A stretch of 64,000 nucleotides of DNA, taken from contig NZ_JAEKJA010000018.1 of NCBI RefSeq assembly GCF_016411865.1, positions 1-64,000 of the forward strand, written 5' to 3'. Of the stretch, positions 3,046-10,319 are shown piece by piece. The stretch's first letter is position 1. Each line of letters begins with the position of its first letter. The notes under the pieces were generated by a model. That model was given only the letters and a program-made list of their open reading frames with translations, had not been told where the DNA came from and did no database searches. This DNA comes from Acuticoccus mangrovi (GTDB lineage: Bacteria > Pseudomonadota > Alphaproteobacteria > Rhizobiales > Amorphaceae). The position numbers and the translations under genes are program-made.

Positions 3046-4164
3046 TCAGCCCGCCGCGCGGATCGTGGCCGGCGCGTCGATGGCGGCGAGCACCGCGTCG
3101 GTCACCTGGCGCATGCCGGCGCTGCCGCCGAGCTCGCAGGTGAGGAGGCCGCCGCCGGCGAACGCCGCGTCCACCGCGCGATTGATGAGGCGCGCGGCGT
3201 CGGCATAGGCGGCGATGTCGTGACGCTCGGCGAGCCACTCCACCATCATCGCGCCGGAGAGGATCGCGGCGGTGGGATTCGCCTTGCCGGTGCCCATGAT
3301 GTCGGGGGCGGACCCGTGGGCGGGCTGGAACACGGCGTGGGCGTCGCCGATGTCGGCCGACGGCGCATAGCCCATGCCGCCCACGAGGGCGGCGGCGAGG
3401 TCGGAGAGGATGTCGCCGAACATGTTCTCCGTCACGATGGTGTCGAACGTCCAGGGCTTGCCCACGAAGGTGAGGGTCGAGGCGTCGACGTAGAGGCGCT
3501 CGGCGGCGATGCCCTCGTAGGTCGAGGCGACCTCGTCGAAGACTTTGCGCATGAAGGCGAAGGAGGCGAACACGTTGGCCTTGTCGATCAGCGTCACCTT
3601 GGCGGCGTGGCCGGGTCGGGCGGCGGCGCGGCGGGCGGCGAGGTCGAAGGTGAAGCGGCTCACCTTCTCGGTGGTGGCGCGGGTGATGACCTGGAAGTCC
3701 CGCGCGACCGCGTCGTTCTCAACCACCCCCTTGCCGAGGGAGGCGAACAGGCCCTCGGTCGATTCGCGCACCAGCACGAAGTCGATGTCGGCGGCGCGCG
3801 GGTCGGCGAGCGGCGTCGGCACGCCGGGGATCGCCCGCGTCGGCCGCACGCCGGCATAGAGGTCGAAGAGGAAGCGCAAGTCGATCTGCGGCGTGATCTC
3901 GGTGCCGTCGGCATAGCGCACCGCGGGCAGGCCCATGGCGCCGAGATAGATGGCGTCGGCGGCCTCGGCGGCCCGCTTCACCTCGTCGGAGAGGGCGGTG
4001 CCGGTGTCGAGATAGGCCTGGGCGCCGGCCGTCAGCGTCTCGGTGAAGAGGCCGGGGCCACCGGTGACGGCGATCGCGCGCTCCACCACGGCGATCGCGG
4101 CCGGCGTCACTTCGTTGCCGATGCCGTCGCCGGGTAGGACGGCGACCTTGAGGGCGTTTGTCAT
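3046..4164 (-). CDS. Isocitrate/isopropylmalate-family dehydrogenase (tartrate/D-malate-like)
   Basis: 372 residues, the usual size for 3-isopropylmalate, tartrate and D-malate dehydrogenases. Seen are [12 protein letters not shown] at the N-terminus, VRESTEGLF (substrate loop), the DKANVF block with the catalytic lysine, the metal-binding aspartates in [12 protein letters not shown], and [16 protein letters not shown] for NAD adenine binding. The ATG at 4164 follows a GGGAGGA ribosome site; the 11 codons upstream are not needed. It is first in a two-gene operon with a Gfo/Idh/MocA oxidoreductase, which suggests hydroxy-acid or sugar-acid catabolism rather than leucine synthesis. The ligand remains unknown. 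Confidence 0.86.
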
Positions 4165-4212
4165 TGTTGTTGTCCTCCCTGCCGTCCCGTGTAGCACGGG
4201 CCGGGGGAGGGG

Positions 4213-5334
4213 TCAGGCGGCCATTTGCCGGCGCATCGCCTGGCGCAGATCGTCGAGCAGCACGAGGTCGCCACGGTTGCGCTTGACGTGCCAGAAGGTC
4301 CACCCGTTGCAGGCCGACAGGTTGCGCACCGCCGCGCCCACCTTGTGGATCGAGCCCTCGTGCTCGCCCGAGCGGATCGAGCCGTCGACCCGTACCTGGG
4401 CGCGCGGACCGTCGCGGCCGCCGACGAGCTCCTCGCCCACCTTGACGTGGCCGGCCTCCACGAGGAGGCCGAAGGGGATGCGCTTCGGCCGCCCTTCGCT
4501 GCCCACCTGGGCGAGGTCGTCATAGGGCACGATGCCGGCAAGGCGCTCCTCGGCGATCGCCGCATAGTCCGCGTCGCGCTCGATGCCGACGAAGCCGCGG
4601 CCGAGGCGCTTCGCCACCGCCCCGGTGGTGCCGGTGCCGAAGAAGGGGTCGAGGACCACGTCGCCCGGCCGGGTGGAGGCGAGGATGATGCGATTGAGCA
4701 GGGCTTCCGGCTTCTGCGTCGGATGCTGCTTGGCGCCGGCGGCGTCGCGCAGCCGTTCCGCGCCGCTGCAGATCGGCAGCGTCCAGTCGGAGCGATGCTG
4801 GAGGTCGTCGTTGAACGTCTTCATCGAGCGGTAATTGAAGACATAGTCGGTGCGCGACTGGTCGGCGACGGCCCAGATCAGCGTTTCGTGGGCGTTGGTG
4901 AAGCGGCGGCCGCGGAAGTTGGGCATGGGGTTGGTCTTCACCCACACCACGTCGTTGAGGATCCAGAAGCCGGTGTCCTGCACCGCCGTGCCGACGCGGA
5001 AGATGTTGTGGTAGCTGCCGATCACCCACAGCGTGCCGTTCGGTTTCAGCGCGCGCCGGATCAGACCGAGCCAGCGCCGGGTGAAGCGATCGTATTCCTC
5101 GAAGCTCGCGAAGCGGTCCCACGCGTCGTCGACGCCGGCGACCTTCGTCTGATTGGGGCGATAGAGATCGCCGTCGAGCTGAAGGTTGTAGGGGGGATCG
5201 GCGAAGGCGACGTCGATGGACCCCGGCGCCAGGGCGGCCAGGTGATCGAGCGCGTCGCCGACCAGAATCTCGTCCCTCAGGAGTGGAGGTCGGAGCGCCC
5301 GGGACGTGGACGCTCCGACCGATTGTTCGCTCAT
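4213..5334 (-). CDS. ccrM: Cell-cycle DNA adenine methyltransferase CcrM (GANTC)
   Basis: 373 residues, a beta-class adenine N6 methyltransferase. The catalytic DPPYN is at 46-50 and the AdoMet loop DPFFGTGTTG at 229-238, the order expected for the beta group. Other family blocks are WVIGSYHNIFRVG, NPMPNFRGRRFTNAHETLIW, HPTQKPEALL and the C-terminal CNGWTFWH of the RAMA domain. In alphaproteobacteria CcrM methylates GANTC after replication and times gene expression. The extended N-terminus before DEILVGD is usual for rhizobial CcrM. I see no GANTC in the 137 bases upstream. Instead the start codon is flanked by two strong inverted repeats (separate entries) and lacks a well-placed ribosome site. 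Confidence 0.96.
   Translation of the reverse strand: MSEQSVGASTSRALRPPLLRDEILVGDALDHLAALAPGSIDVAFADPPYNLQLDGDLYRPNQTKVAGVDDAWDRFASFEEYDRFTRRWLGLIRRALKPNGTLWVIGSYHNIFRVGTAVQDTGFWILNDVVWVKTNPMPNFRGRRFTNAHETLIWAVADQSRTDYVFNYRSMKTFNDDLQHRSDWTLPICSGAERLRDAAGAKQHPTQKPEALLNRIILASTRPGDVVLDPFFGTGTTGAVAKRLGRGFVGIERDADYAAIAEERLAGIVPYDDLAQVGSEGRPKRIPFGLLVEAGHVKVGEELVGGRDGPRAQVRVDGSIRSGEHEGSIHKVGAAVRNLSACNGWTFWHVKRNRGDLVLLDDLRQAMRRQMAA
5288..5320 (-). promoter_or_regulatory. Hairpin within the first codons of ccrM
   Basis: A perfect 10-base inverted repeat, GGTCGGAGCG (5288-5297) and CGCTCCGACC (5311-5320), separated by 13 bases, spans about codons 5-16 of ccrM. In the mRNA it forms a GC-rich stem beginning roughly 14 bases after the start codon, inside the region covered by an initiating ribosome. 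Together with the upstream hairpin it brackets the start. A regulatory role is inference. Confidence 0.6.
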
Positions 5335-5345
5335 TGCGACGCAAT
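5333..5345. promoter_or_regulatory. 6-1-6 palindrome overlapping the ccrM start codon
   Basis: ATTGCG (5333-5338), one base, CGCAAT (5340-5345). The left arm contains two bases of the start codon (CAT on the plus strand). It could be a protein operator or a small competing RNA stem; nothing in sequence decides. Confidence 0.4.
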
Positions 5346-5387
5346 ACCCTCACGCAAATCGCAAGACAGGATTTACGGCGTGAGGGT
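5346..5387 (-). promoter_or_regulatory. ccrM leader hairpin that buries the Shine-Dalgarno-like run
   Basis: ACCCTCACGC (5346-5355) is a perfect 10-base complement of GCGTGAGGGT (5378-5387). Inside it AAATC (5356-5360) pairs with GATTT (5370-5374), leaving a 9-base loop and a 3-base bulge. In the ccrM transcript the 3' arm reads GCGUGAGGGU, ends 11 bases before the AUG, and contains the only purine-rich ribosome-site-like run (GAGGG). The structure therefore hides the likely ribosome site. No U tract follows, so it is not an intrinsic terminator. Confidence 0.65.
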
Positions 5388-5395
5388 GAAAGGCC

Positions 5396-5401
5396 GGTTA
5401 A
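5396..5401 (-). promoter_or_regulatory. Possible CtrA half-site upstream of ccrM
   Basis: The minus strand reads TTAACC here, matching the conserved half of the CtrA recognition sequence TTAACCAT, about 62 bases before the ccrM start. CtrA drives ccrM in Caulobacter. A six-base match alone is weak. Confidence 0.2.
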
Positions 5402-5471
5402 GCCCTTGCAAGAATTTCGGTTTACCTTTGTTACCAAGTCCTCAAGACGACTTACCGAAATCTAAACAAGA

Positions 5472-8400
5472 TCAGTGGACGACGTCGTCGCCGGACAGGT
5501 CGGCGAGCAGGCCGGCGGCGACGGAGATGCGCGAGATCGAGATGCGGCCACCGTCGATGATGTCGGCGACGGCGCGGCGGGTGCGCGTGACGGCGGCTCC
5601 CTGCGCCTCCATCCAGGCGGCGACGCGCTCCGCGCCGGGGCCCGGCGGCATCGAGGCGAGCACCTCCACCGCGAGCCCGCGATGGGCGTCGGCAAGGGTC
5701 CGGCGCGCCCGGTCCACGGCGAGGCCGTCATAATAGTCGTCGACCGGGATGGTGCGGGCGGTGAGGTCGAGGCTCGCGAGCTTGAAGTTGTCGTTGAGGG
5801 CGAACCACACCTCGCCCGCCTCGCGCAGGCTCACCTCGCAGGCCGAGGCCACCACCACGATGTCGAGGGCGGCGGTGCTCAACGGCATCCGGGCGAAGAG
5901 CGGAGCGAGCGCCTCGGGCACGCCGAGCTCCATCAGCCCGGCGGCCTGCGCCCGCAGGTGGGCGGCGTCGTCCGGCGGCAGCATCTCGGCGAAGGTATCG
6001 CGCAGCTCGCCGATCCCGCCGCGGAAGCGGTCGACGACGGTGGCAAGCCCTTCGGAGAAGGTCTCGTTGCGCACGAACCAGACGGTGGCGTCGGTGAGCA
6101 GGCCGCGGATCGTCTGGTAGAGCTCGAGCTGCATGTCGCCGTCGATCTTATTGTCGAGCGCGTCGACCTCGGCGTTGATCTCGGTGAGGGAGAAGCAGTC
6201 GCGGGCGGCGGCGTAGGCGCGGGCGATGTCCTCCACCGGCGCTCCGGTCTGATCGCCGACGCGGATGATGAAGGTGGGACCGCCGCGGTTGATCATCGAG
6301 TTGGCGAGCTGCGTCGCGATGATCTCGCGGCGCAGGCGGTGGCCGTGGATGTCCTCGGCGAAGCGCTCGCGCATGGCGGAGGGGAAGTAGCGGTCGAGCT
6401 CGCGGCCGAGATAGGCGTCGTCCGGCACGTCCGACTGCAGGATCTGATCGAACAGCACGATCTTGGCGTAGGCGAGGAGCACGCCGATCTCGGGGCGGCT
6501 GAGGCCTTCGCCGGCGGCGACGCGGTCCGTCAGCGTCTGGTTGGACGGCAGGTCCTCGAGCTCGCGGTCGAGGCCGGAGGGCTCGAGCGCCTCCATCAGC
6601 CGGCGCTGGAAGCCGGCGGCCTCCGCGCTCTGCCGCCTGGAGAGGGAGATCGCCAGCGTCTGCAGGTAGTTGTTGCGCAGGACGAGCTCGGCCACCTCGT
6701 CGGTCATCTCGACGAGCAGGGCGTCGCGATCGGCCCGCTCGAGCCGGCCGGAGCGCATCGCCCCGGCAAGGGCGATCTTGATGTTGACCTCGACGTCGGA
6801 CGTGTTGACGCCGGCGGAGTTGTCGATGGCGTCGGAGTTGATGCGCCCGCCCTTCAGCGCGTAGGCGATGCGCGCCTTCTGGCTGACGCCGAGGTTGGCG
6901 CCTTCGCCCACCACCTTGGCGCGGACCTCGCGGGCCTCGATGCGGATGGCGTCGTTGGCGCGGTCGCCGATGTCGAGGTTCGATTCGCTCGCCGCCCGCA
7001 CGTAGGTGCCGATGCCGCCGAACCAGAGCAGATCGACCGGTGCCTTGAGGATCGCCCGCATCACGTCGGTCGGGGTGAGGGGGCCCGACGGCATGTCGAG
7101 CGCCACCCGCGCTTCCGGCGACAGGTCGATGGATTTCGCCGATCGCGAATAGATGCCGCCACCCGCCGAGAGGGTCGCGCGGTCGTAGTCCTGCCAGGAT
7201 GAGCGGGGCATGTTGAAGAGGGTGAGGCGCGCGGCGTAGGAGGCCTCGGGGTCGGGATTGGGGTCGATGAAGATGTCGCGGTGGTCGAAGGCGGCGACGA
7301 GCTTCGTCTTGCGCGACAAGAGCATGCCGTTGCCGAAGACGTCGCCCGACATGTCGCCGACGCCCACCACGGCGAACGGCTCCGACTGGATGTCGTGGTT
7401 CATCTCGCGGAAGTGGCGCTTCACCGCCTCCCAGGCGCCGCGGGCGGTGATGCCCATCGCCTTGTGGTCGTAGCCCGCCGAGCCGCCGGAGGCGAACGCG
7501 TCGTCGAGCCAGAAGCCGTGCTCGGCGGCGATCGCGTTGGCGGTGTCGGAGAAGGTGGCGGTGCCCTTGTCGGCGGCGACCACCAGGTAGGGATCGTCGC
7601 CCTCGTAGCGGATCACCTCGGCCGGAGGCTCGATCCCGTCGGGGCCGATGTCGTCGGTGATGTCGAGAAGGGTGTCGATGAAGATCTTGTAGGCTTCGCG
7701 GCCCTCCTCGAAGAAGGCGTCGCGCTGGGCGCGGTCCGGCAGCTTCTTCGGAAAGAAGCCGCCCTTGGCGCCGACCGGCACGATGACGGCGTTCTTGACC
7801 TGCTGCGCCTTCACGAGGCCGAGCACCTCGGTGCGGAAGTCCTGCGGGCGGTCGGACCAGCGCAGGCCGCCGCGGGCGACGGCGCCGAAGCGCAGGTGCA
7901 CGCCTTCGACGCGCGGGGAGTAGACCCAGATCTCGCGGAACGGCGCCGGGCGCGGCAGCCCAGCCAGCGCGTGCGGGTCGAACTTGAAGGCGAAGGTCGC
8001 GACCGGCGAGCCGTCCGCCTCGTGCTGATAGAGGTTGGTGCGGACCGTCGCCTCGATGAGGTTCTTGAAGCGATGCACGATGGTGTCGTCGGCGAGGCTG
8101 ATGATCTCGTTGCAGAGCTCCTCGATCTCGCCGTCGAGCCGGGCGACCGCGGCCTCCCGATCGGCCTCGCCGAAGGTGGGGTCGAAGCGGGCGGTGAACA
8201 TCGCCACCAGGGCGCGGGCGACGGCCGGATAGCGGTTCAGCGTCTCCGCCATCAGGTCCTGGCCGTAGGGAATCGCGGTCTGCCGCAGATAGCGGGAGAG
8301 GGCGCGCAGGACGGCGATCTCGCGCCAGCCGAGCCCGGCGTTGAGGAGGAGGCTGTTGTACTCGTCGCTTTCGGCGCTGCCTTCCCAGACGGCGATGAAG

Positions 8401-10319
8401 AGGGCCTGCAGCTTCTCGGCGAGCACCGACACCTCGATCTCGTCGCAGGAGGCGACGGCGAGCGTCATGTCGTGGATGTAGATGCCCTCGTCGGTCCCCG
8501 GCGTGTTCACCCGGAAGGTGCGCTCGTTGACGACGATGAAGCCCATGTTCTCCAGGATCGGCACGCGGGCCGACAGGAGGATGGGCGCGTCCTTGTGGTA
8601 GATCTTCAGCGAGCAGCGGTCCGGACCGTCGGTGTCGCGGCGGAAGAACAGGATCGCGGTGGGGGTATCGTCGGTGATCCGCTCCAAGATGGTGATGTCG
8701 CGCACCGCCCGCTCGGCGGAGTAGGTGGCGCGGTAGCTCTCCGAGAAGGACTCCGACCAGGAGGCGATCTTGAAGCGGTCGAGGCCGAGCTTGGGGGCGG
8801 CGAGCGAGGCGCGCAGCAACTCGTCGGCCCAGGTGCGGATGATGGCGGAGATGCGCTCCTCGAGCTCGCGCGGGTCGCACTGCGGCGTCTCGCCCAGGCG
8901 GCGGCCGACGATGATGTGGAGGCGCGTCAGCACCCCTTCGGGCATCGTCAGATAGCGGGCCGAGATGTGGCCGTCGTAGGCCTCGGCCATCAGCGCCTCG
9001 ATCCGCTCGCGCACCTCGGTGGAGAAGCGGTCGCGCGGGACGAAGACGAGGATCGACACGAATCGGTCGAACGGGTCGATGCGCGGCAGCACGCGCACCC
9101 GCGGCCGGTCGGAGAGCTGCAGGATCGCGAGGGCGAAGCGGGCGAGGAGGTCCTCGCCGATCTGGAACAGCTCGTCGCGCGGGTAGGTCTCCATGATGTT
9201 GACGAGCGCGTTGCCGGAGTGGCTCTCGGGGTCGAAGCCGAGCCGGCGGATGACGTTGCCCACCTTCCGCCGCAGCAGCGGGATGTCCATCACCGACTGG
9301 GTGTAGGCCGTGGAGGTGAACAGGCCGACGATGCGCAGCTCGCCGGCGAGCACGCCGTTCTCGAAGCGCTTCACGCCGATATAGTCGAGGTGGACGCGGC
9401 GGTGGATGCGGCTGCGGACGTTGGCCTTGGCGATGAAGACGGGCTCGCCGTGCTTCAGGAACTCGCGCACCTCCGGCGTCATCGTCACGAGCTCGGAGCC
9501 GCGGCGCAGCACCTTGATGGCCGGATCGCGCAGGATGCCGAGGCCGGCTTCGTCGGGCGCCACGAGCTCGCCCTCGTCCGGCGTGCCGTCGAGGGTGTAC
9601 TCGCGCATGCCCATGAGGATGAAGTCGCGCTTCTCGATCGCCTCCAGGAAGTCGATCGCCTCGGACAGGACGTCGGGGGCGACGGGCGGGGGCATGTGGC
9701 GGTAGCGCTCGATCGCCTCGCGCACCAGCGCCCGCATCTTGGGCCAGTCGGCGACCGCGGCGTCGACGTCGTGGTGCACGGCGAGCAGCGAGCGGGCGAG
9801 CGCCTCGCGGTGGTCGGGGTCGTCGATCGGGTCGACATGGACGTGCACGAAGCTCTCGTGCTGATGGCCGTCGCCGCTGTGGGCCTCGCCGTGGAAGGCG
9901 ATGAGGGTGCCGGCCCGGTCCCGCTCCACCGCGAGCACCGGGTGCACCACGAGGTGCAGCTCGATGTCCTGGGCGTGGAGCTCGTTCTTCAGCGAGCCGA
10001 ACAGGAAGGGCTTGTCGTCGTTGACGGCCTCCACCACCGAGATGGCATGGCCGCTCTCGGCCTCGGTGATGCGCACCTCCTCCGGCGCCATCACCACGAC
10101 GCGCGGCTCGTCGGGCTCGCGGTGCTGGAGCGCCTTCCAGGCGGAGCGGGCGAGGCGCATCAGGTCGCCGACGCCGTAGCGGGCGAGATCCTCCGCCGCG
10201 GCGTGGCGGAAGAGCAGCGCGGCGAACGTGGCGAACCCGACATCGCTGGAGGAGGCGCGAACCTGCTCGGCGAGCTCGGAGAGCTTCACGTCCTTGGTGT
10301 CCTGGAAATCTTCGAGCAT
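5472..10319 (-). CDS. gdhZ: NAD-specific glutamate dehydrogenase, large (L_180) class
   Basis: 1615 residues, matching the roughly 180-kDa class of NAD-glutamate dehydrogenase that deaminates glutamate to 2-oxoglutarate and ammonia. It has a long N-terminal regulatory half with ACT-like segments, then the catalytic core. The core carries [23 protein letters not shown] and the VPVGAKGGF block with its catalytic lysine, and the nucleotide region shows [18 protein letters not shown] and [11 protein letters not shown]. The C-terminal domain runs to about residue 1610. The ATG at 10319 is preceded on the minus strand by GGGGGAGAG. The frame is intact. The leader upstream contains a terminator-like hairpin (separate entry), so transcription may be attenuated. 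Confidence 0.96.
   Translation of the reverse strand: [1615 protein letters not shown]

Follow-up and report, generated by a model that had tools for sequence, protein, structure and literature searches.

A hairpin in near-constant register behind the ccrM start codon in part of the Hyphomicrobiales, a putative starting block for the ribosome

Introduction

The timing of CcrM, the cell-cycle DNA adenine methyltransferase, has a central role in the cell cycle of Alphaproteobacteria. In Caulobacter, ccrM is controlled by CtrA-activated transcription, promoter methylation and Lon proteolysis and, to our knowledge, CcrM timing has so far been explained by transcription and proteolysis. A CtrA motif lies upstream of Caulobacter ccrM, the full motif being TTAA-N7-TTAA, with full sites at −32 and −39 of two transcription starts and at −14 for ctrA P3 (PMC4287350). 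In S. meliloti, CtrA binds the ccrM promoter, which becomes less active when CtrA is depleted (PMC4433202). Translation of another Caulobacter cell-cycle gene, dnaA, responds to nutrients via its N-terminal nascent peptide (PMC8443254). In regard to RNA structures located behind start codons, a stem-loop around +20 of E. coli fepA raises initiation and was called a "starting block", and bamA has another; both come from the work of Jagodnik et al. (2017, Mol Cell), as presented in two reviews of it (PMC7769764, PMC12692685).

Among the CC-licensed PMC papers returned by literature searches, none has a title or abstract describing a structured ccrM message. Translational control of ccrM was likewise not found in that literature, as had been supposed in an initial annotation of the DNA studied here, made from the sequence alone. 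This DNA is a window of 64,000 nt of Acuticoccus mangrovi (contig NZ_JAEKJA010000018.1, positions 1 to 64,000), in which all features discussed below lie on the minus strand. By its best named relatives and the tree, the genome belongs in or near Hyphomicrobiales. Like the fepA and bamA messages, the ccrM message of this genome carries a stem-loop in its coding sequence just past the start codon, and we compared this structure across related genomes.

Results

The ccrM locus of the window

The gene at 4213-5334 (373 aa) was recognized as ccrM from the ORF list, the reading frame and the NCBIfam and Pfam models. Its product matches the NCBIfam CcrM equivalog model over residues 20-366 (E 3.5e-169) and contains the Pfam domains N6_N4_Mtase and RAMA; although the score of 562 bits is below the curated cut-off of 830, we treated the product as CcrM. 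Matches to the same model were found in 285 of 297 genomes of the order. The ATG at 5334, located 43 codons before DPPYN, is the sole in-frame ATG, GTG or TTG from the preceding stop to the codons of DPPYN (the 10 codons from the ATG to the hairpin end were read by eye). Upstream, on the same strand, lies an NAD-glutamate dehydrogenase gene (gdh, 5472-10319; ORF list and Pfam), separated from ccrM by a gap of 137 nt. From the gdh stop to the ccrM ATG no GANTC was seen by eye, in agreement with the initial annotation.

The 231-nt region at the ccrM start folds with −92.3 kcal/mol (z = −4.06), and none of 200 shuffles folded equally well. A search of 4000-6500 against Rfam, extended to E 5, returned nothing on the leader or the hairpin; its two matches were both far under the gathering scores and both situated elsewhere.

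Structure and register of the early-coding hairpin

The hairpin occupies 5288-5320, that is, +15 to +47, within the first 16 codons, and consists of a 5′ arm (5308-5320), a loop (5301-5307) and a 3′ arm (5288-5300), with an energy of −26.7 kcal/mol. A perfect stem of 10 pairs had been annotated at this place; the stem does exist and its first base is +15, but it comprises 13 contiguous pairs closed by a 7-nt loop. In 19 folded models, the hairpin is predicted to form a separate folding domain.

For comparison, ccrM starts were called as the farthest ATG located 72-240 nt ahead of the DPPYN codons, a rule that misplaces the start in some loci (e.g., L111 and L160). The first locus set comprised 122 loci, 7 of 131 having been dropped because they lacked the anchor motif and 2 others because they lacked a start, while the final set comprised 205 distinct loci, after 22 of 251 were dropped and 24 duplicates were removed from the remaining 229. 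In 82 of the 205 loci, the stretch from the start codon to the catalytic domain contains a hairpin of −13 kcal/mol or below. In 72 of these 82 its apex lies at +27 to +33.5, and in 55 exactly at +29.5, where any candidate ATG placing the apex in range was accepted, which slightly favours that range. Across the 72 loci, stems have 8-13 bp, loops 3-9 nt and 5′ bases at +15 to +22, and energies range from −13.6 to −29.3 kcal/mol. No in-frame stop interrupts the hairpin region in any of the 72 loci. In the window there is no ATG, GTG or TTG between the hairpin and DPPYN, which is the case in 3 of the 72 loci, the rest having some.

When all 205 loci were scanned unselected, pairing of position p with 59−p, corresponding to an apex at +29.5, reached 0.519, against 0.347-0.482 in 30 other registers. 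Among the 122 first loci, 25 have a 66-nt start window with a hairpin of −15 kcal/mol or below, stronger than in any of 27 control windows taken from the gene itself; the hairpin of one of them, L076, sits further in. Finally, among 255 ORFs of at least 200 aa in 464 kb of its own genome, the ccrM of the window ranks first for a hairpin in this register with its −26.7 kcal/mol, the runner-up having −16.6 kcal/mol with farthest starts, or −20.7 kcal/mol when each of the first four ATGs is allowed as a start.

The 3′ arm is followed by TCCACTCCTGAGGG, and the arrangement of an intrinsic terminator, a GC stem and then a U run, was not found. The run behind the hairpin (5274-5287) is rich in pyrimidines, with a mean of 0.74 in 10 genus and family loci vs 0.49 in other coding 14-mers. 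Pairing between the SD-like run of the leader, GAGGG in the window, and this pyrimidine run, hinted at by some minimum-energy folds, proved no better than in shuffles and was discarded (72 loci against dinucleotide shuffles: mean z 0.17, p<0.05 in 4).

Selection on the RNA

An unselected comparison included the window together with all seven same-genus and both same-family genomes returned, 10 loci in total. Each of them has at least 10 contiguous pairs starting from +15 or +16, and all 100 stem cells are paired, 9 of them as G-U wobbles. Among the eight genus loci, 7 of the 10 positions of the stem are variable, and 9 of 10 once the two family loci, in which the stem starts one base later, are included. 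N-terminal peptides also differ within the genus (SVGASTSRALRP, MAGARGVSRPTF, RVEAPKASRPPL) while the pairing persists. In 24 loci picked for having the hairpin, all 11 pairs showed changes on both sides, in 43 cells vs 13.6 in shuffles, and the covariation score of these same selected loci was 0.499, compared with 0.230 in shuffles and with no more than 0.180 when the register was slid.

Selection could also be followed at the level of codons. In usage-weighted synonymous shuffles of codons 2-18, the hairpin beat the shuffles (p≤0.05) in 70 of the 72 loci, the exceptions being L231 and L240; since the 72 loci were selected for the hairpin, these per-locus p values and the absence of mismatches are partly so by construction, and pooled codon usage was applied to short loci. 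In the same comparison, the unselected set of 10 loci from the genus and family gave p≤0.0125 throughout. Furthermore, wobbles make up 35 of 440 cells in the set with an apex at +29.5, and on the opposite strand they would be A-C mismatches. By comparative evidence, which includes compensatory changes that preserve structure over sequence, the downstream hairpin is a real RNA structure, selected as RNA and not as a peptide or a DNA dyad.

Part of the stem is nevertheless shared: in the 55 loci at +29.5, the arm at +19 to +26 is mostly GGGG[CU]G[UC]C, which several families have in common, whereas f1, f14 and f21 carry arms of other sequence. What is almost fixed is the distance between hairpin and AUG, while the loop, the peptide, the leader and partly the stem sequence vary between lineages.

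Leader block and ribosome-binding site

Alignments and a search of the own genome delimit a conserved leader block, TTGCGTGAGGGTATTGCGTCGCA (5335-5357), which abuts the ATG. The block, TTGCGTnAGGGTAnTGCGTCGCAATGA, is nearly invariant in an alignment of 19 loci from several families, and it contains the 3′ arm of the upstream stem discussed below. In its own genome it occurs with no mismatch at ccrM and otherwise in three places, each with 3 mismatches. A mini-stem TTGCG/CGCAA(U), touching the AUG, is predicted to be paired in 8 of 19 folded leaders, and its arms are nearly invariant, so that covariation cannot be scored. The annotated 6-1-6 palindrome ATTGCG-T-CGCAAT over the start is present as well, with conservation limited to its core TGCG-T-CGCA. 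The word TTGCGTA was found near the ccrM start in 28 of 122 loci vs 0 of 1220 control windows. Words of this type cluster at the ccrM start in hairpin-free loci too, and are candidates for a leader motif, a start-site motif or a factor site.

In the window, the only weak SD-like run is GAGGG at 5347-5351, at the long spacing of −17 to −13, located, as annotated, within the span of the upstream stem. SD 4-mers at −14 to −4 were found in none of the 72 hairpin loci and in 31 of 102 hairpin-free ones, while at −20 to −10 the order is reversed, with 25 of 72 vs 4 of 102. This comparison excludes 31 of the 205 loci, and it concerns related genomes that are not independent, a correction by tree leaving 3 usable pairs and no power. 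The duplex energy to the 16S tail did not differ between hairpin and hairpin-free loci (p 0.195). A long-spaced SD may serve the hairpin loci.

The upstream stem and the promoter

A second stem, at 5346-5387, exists in the window as annotated, with 10 pairs plus an inner 5 and a 3′ arm that stops 11 nt short of the ATG. The initial annotation had proposed that the two stems bracket the start codon and hide the ribosome site, with covariation of both stems across relatives as a check. The downstream stem covaries and is kept in all nine close relatives. The upstream stem is whole in the window only, its register being broken in each of the nine other genus and family loci, and in 15 aligned loci no covariation was detected (59.0% paired vs 58.0% shuffled, with one cell changed on both sides), so neither the bracketing pair nor a mask over the SD was borne out.

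In a duplex test of the upstream segment against the leader block, 4 of 19 loci (L001, L003, L005 and L006) exceeded shuffles with p 0.002-0.018, the window with −21.8 kcal/mol and p 0.002, while L003, L005 and L006, which adjoin on the tree, use a register other than that of the window. The remaining 15 loci, L002 included, did not exceed shuffles at 0.05. The upstream stem as a conserved RNA is thereby ruled out by its broken register, the lack of covariation and duplexes mostly at shuffle level; it is, on these alignments, not a shared feature. With duplexes better than shuffled ones in four of the 19 loci, single lineages may still have an upstream stem of their own.

A CtrA-type box, TTAACCGGCCTTTCACC, at 5385-5401 (TTAA-N7-TTNA, motif form after PMC4287350) ends 50 nt before the ATG, and its last three bases are overlapped by the 5′ arm of the upstream stem. 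The end of the box lies 49-50 nt ahead of the ATG in all 10 genus and family loci, and its form across 15 aligned loci is TTAA-N7-TT[TC]A, with TTAAC and TTnA invariant. Applying the −32 and −39 spacings of Caulobacter, we infer a ccrM transcription start near 5354-5369, downstream of the upstream stem's 5′ arm, which would then lie outside the RNA; a spacing of −14, as at ctrA P3, would instead put the start inside that arm. The stem at 5346-5387 is probably promoter DNA that pairs by chance.

Distribution of the hairpin

A covariance model of leader plus hairpin was searched in 397 genomes of the order and 385 of the class. Within the order, 50 of the 397 genomes had a match at E≤0.01, and 35 at E≤1.6e-11, each with one strong match, all 35 at ccrM and in families f1, f13, f24, f41 and f45. 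In the class, 3 of 385 genomes matched at E≤0.001, only the own genome strongly; a class-wide view of the hairpin without this particular leader is limited to the sampled ccrM loci. Among 20 weak matches (E 4.8e-6 to 0.0096), 13 were inspected, of which two (L175 and L178) are ccrM starts. By eye, the other 11 include terminator-like sequences at gene ends (L173 and L176) and a single look-alike of a ccrM leader, L174. The second match of the own genome (L183, E 0.0024) has no ccrM alongside, and the weak match of G237 directly precedes the ccrM of that genome. Locus L174 (G126:C69:22813-22898) shows a CtrA-like box and the hairpin and, by eye, a stop after 18 codons in the ATG frame; its genome has no ccrM match at E≤1e-90, and the contig ends about 300 nt further on.

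Within the order, 8 coded families have the hairpin itself. It is present in 28 of 29 scored loci of f35 (genomes up to 8.8 Mb), where it stands behind an unrelated leader, in 5 of 5 loci of f14 and in 3 of 3 of f21; 16 of the 19 f41 loci entered the set through the covariance model. The f35 leaders L228, L232-L239, L241-L243, L247 and L249-L251 resemble one another and differ from that of the window by eye, with GTCGG...CCGAC arms and, in most, repeated GAGTC (GANTC) before the ATG. On the other hand, most sampled families of the order have no hairpin. None was found in the sampled loci of Caulobacteraceae (0/8), Paracoccaceae (0/8) and Phyllobacteriaceae, including Brucella, Mesorhizobium and others (0/6), and f27 had 0 of 10 at the threshold, with 5-6 bp stems near that position in several loci. 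Among loci labelled Rhizobiaceae, 1 of 4 has the hairpin. Locus L037 (CAMAWF010000080.1, titled Rhizobium sp. Q54) adjoins f35 in the ccrM tree, its leader and hairpin are of the f35 kind, and its label may be wrong.

A tree built from the catalytic part has 139 scored rows, of which 62 have the hairpin and 77 lack it (22 of 161 rows were omitted as unscored), and the trait requires a minimum of 6 changes on it. Such a small number of changes suggests that the hairpin has mostly been inherited.

Discussion

An initiating ribosome must meet a selected RNA structure beside the ccrM start codon, which makes a translational layer of CcrM control plausible, as the initial annotation had suggested, although not by way of two stems. 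A 30S subunit with AUG in its P site covers the mRNA to about +15. With a stem base at +15 to +22, the hairpin would accordingly stand at the mouth of the mRNA channel, at the front edge of the 30S. A stem-loop within the first ~50 nt with its base near this edge, the position known from fepA and bamA, was present in 72 of 205 loci. We therefore consider the following sequence of events. The stem base would contact the front edge of the 30S, and the hairpin would hold or position the subunit at the AUG in place of a well-placed Shine-Dalgarno sequence, by which initiation would rise; the 70S would later unwind the hairpin and translate through it, and cell-cycle or trans-acting control might be exerted via the same structure. 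We give roughly even chances to the hairpin acting as such a starting block. Strong structures near a start codon more often reduce translation, so the effect could be of the opposite sign, and our confidence is slightly lowered because part of the stem sequence is common to several families. Further points against the starting block are the more frequent SD 4-mers at long spacing in hairpin loci, the mini-stem predicted to touch the AUG in 8 of 19 leaders, and the lack of a hairpin in most sampled families of the order as well as in Caulobacteraceae and Paracoccaceae.

The structure, its register, covariation, codon-level selection, the missing SD 4-mer at the usual spacing and inheritance were all observed computationally. 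The more ambitious view, in which a ribosome-registered RNA device ancestral to much of Hyphomicrobiales replaces a well-placed SD, with CcrM synthesis gated by the opening of the hairpin, is offered tentatively and is, taken as a whole, rather unlikely. If true, the gated hairpin would add to the CtrA-DnaA-GcrA-CcrM circuit a translational gate that Caulobacter lacks.

The main rival to the starting block is a brake, for which the same RNA element would slow the first steps of the 70S or hinder loading of the 30S, so that each mRNA would yield little CcrM and the protein would be confined to a short window of time. CcrM needs limiting in Caulobacter, and a hairpin at the ribosome edge with up to −29.3 kcal/mol, and no less than −13.6 kcal/mol among the 72 loci, would suit this role. 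An additional brake nevertheless seems less needed on a site that is already weak, with no SD 4-mer at −14 to −4 in any of the 72 loci, and we regard the brake as a possible but rather unlikely reading.

Alternatively, the hairpin and the leader block could be a docking or switch site that is opened or masked by an sRNA or an RNA-binding protein, possibly CcrM itself. OmrA/B are known to open the fepA stem-loop (PMC7769764, PMC12692685), and such a partner could account for the near invariance over several families of the leader block TTGCGTnAGGnTnnTGCGTCGCAATGA, which is confined to ccrM in its own genome, and for the largely common arm at +19 to +26 in the 55 loci at +29.5. However, loops vary, the genus of the window, f14 and f21 carry other stem sequences, and f35 retains the hairpin behind an unrelated leader, which makes a docking site improbable.

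Simple stability or insulation, in which the hairpin merely keeps GC-rich coding sequence off the start region or shields the message from decay, agrees with its predicted behaviour as a separate folding domain in the 19 models, but has no need of a near-constant register relative to the AUG (apex at +29.5 in 55 of 72 loci), and appears very improbable. Even less credit can be given to an origin outside the RNA, either as the DNA dyad of a regulator, inverted repeats serving as operators too, or as a side effect of conservation of the N-terminal peptide (MSVxRxGA..), the RGA..APR codons being common to several families. Both are contradicted by wobbles that pair on one strand only (9 of 100 unselected cells, and 35 of 440 among loci at +29.5), by the compensatory changes, by genus peptides that differ with pairing kept and by the loss of the stem in synonymous shuffles, and the match to the CcrM model starts only from residue 20. 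Least credible of all is the annotated switch of two stems with a sequestered SD, for which the duplex in the window (−21.8 kcal/mol, p 0.002) and those of L003, L005 and L006 (p<0.02, in another register) are outweighed by the absent covariation, a register broken in 9 of 9 relatives, 15 of 19 loci at shuffle level and a 5′ arm that is probably untranscribed.

Returning to the starting block, comparison with described systems shows both common and distinct traits. As in Caulobacter, the ccrM promoter of the window has a CtrA-type box. However, none of the 8 Caulobacteraceae loci has the hairpin, and in Caulobacter vibrioides (L106) the ATG is located only 28 codons before DPPYN, compared with 43 in the window, so that the stretch encoding the hairpin is missing there. 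A start structure in near-fixed register to the AUG across families would add a translational layer to CcrM timing. Caulobacter dnaA (PMC8443254) is likewise an alphaproteobacterial cell-cycle gene under translational control by its own coding sequence, but there the nascent peptide counts, whereas in ccrM it is the RNA pairing that is conserved.

The E. coli stem-loops are closest to what we observed. Those of fepA and bamA also lie in the coding sequence just past the start codon, at about +20 in fepA and with a base at +15 to +22 in ccrM (PMC7769764, PMC12692685). On the other hand, the ccrM hairpin belongs to a cell-cycle methyltransferase gene and extends over 8 coded families, where its position is kept while the loop, the peptide, the leader and partly the stem change. 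In position and predicted structure, the ccrM hairpin is similar to the starting block of fepA, its functional membership in this class being putative, and it represents a natural and long-conserved test of stem-loops behind the start codon as starting blocks.
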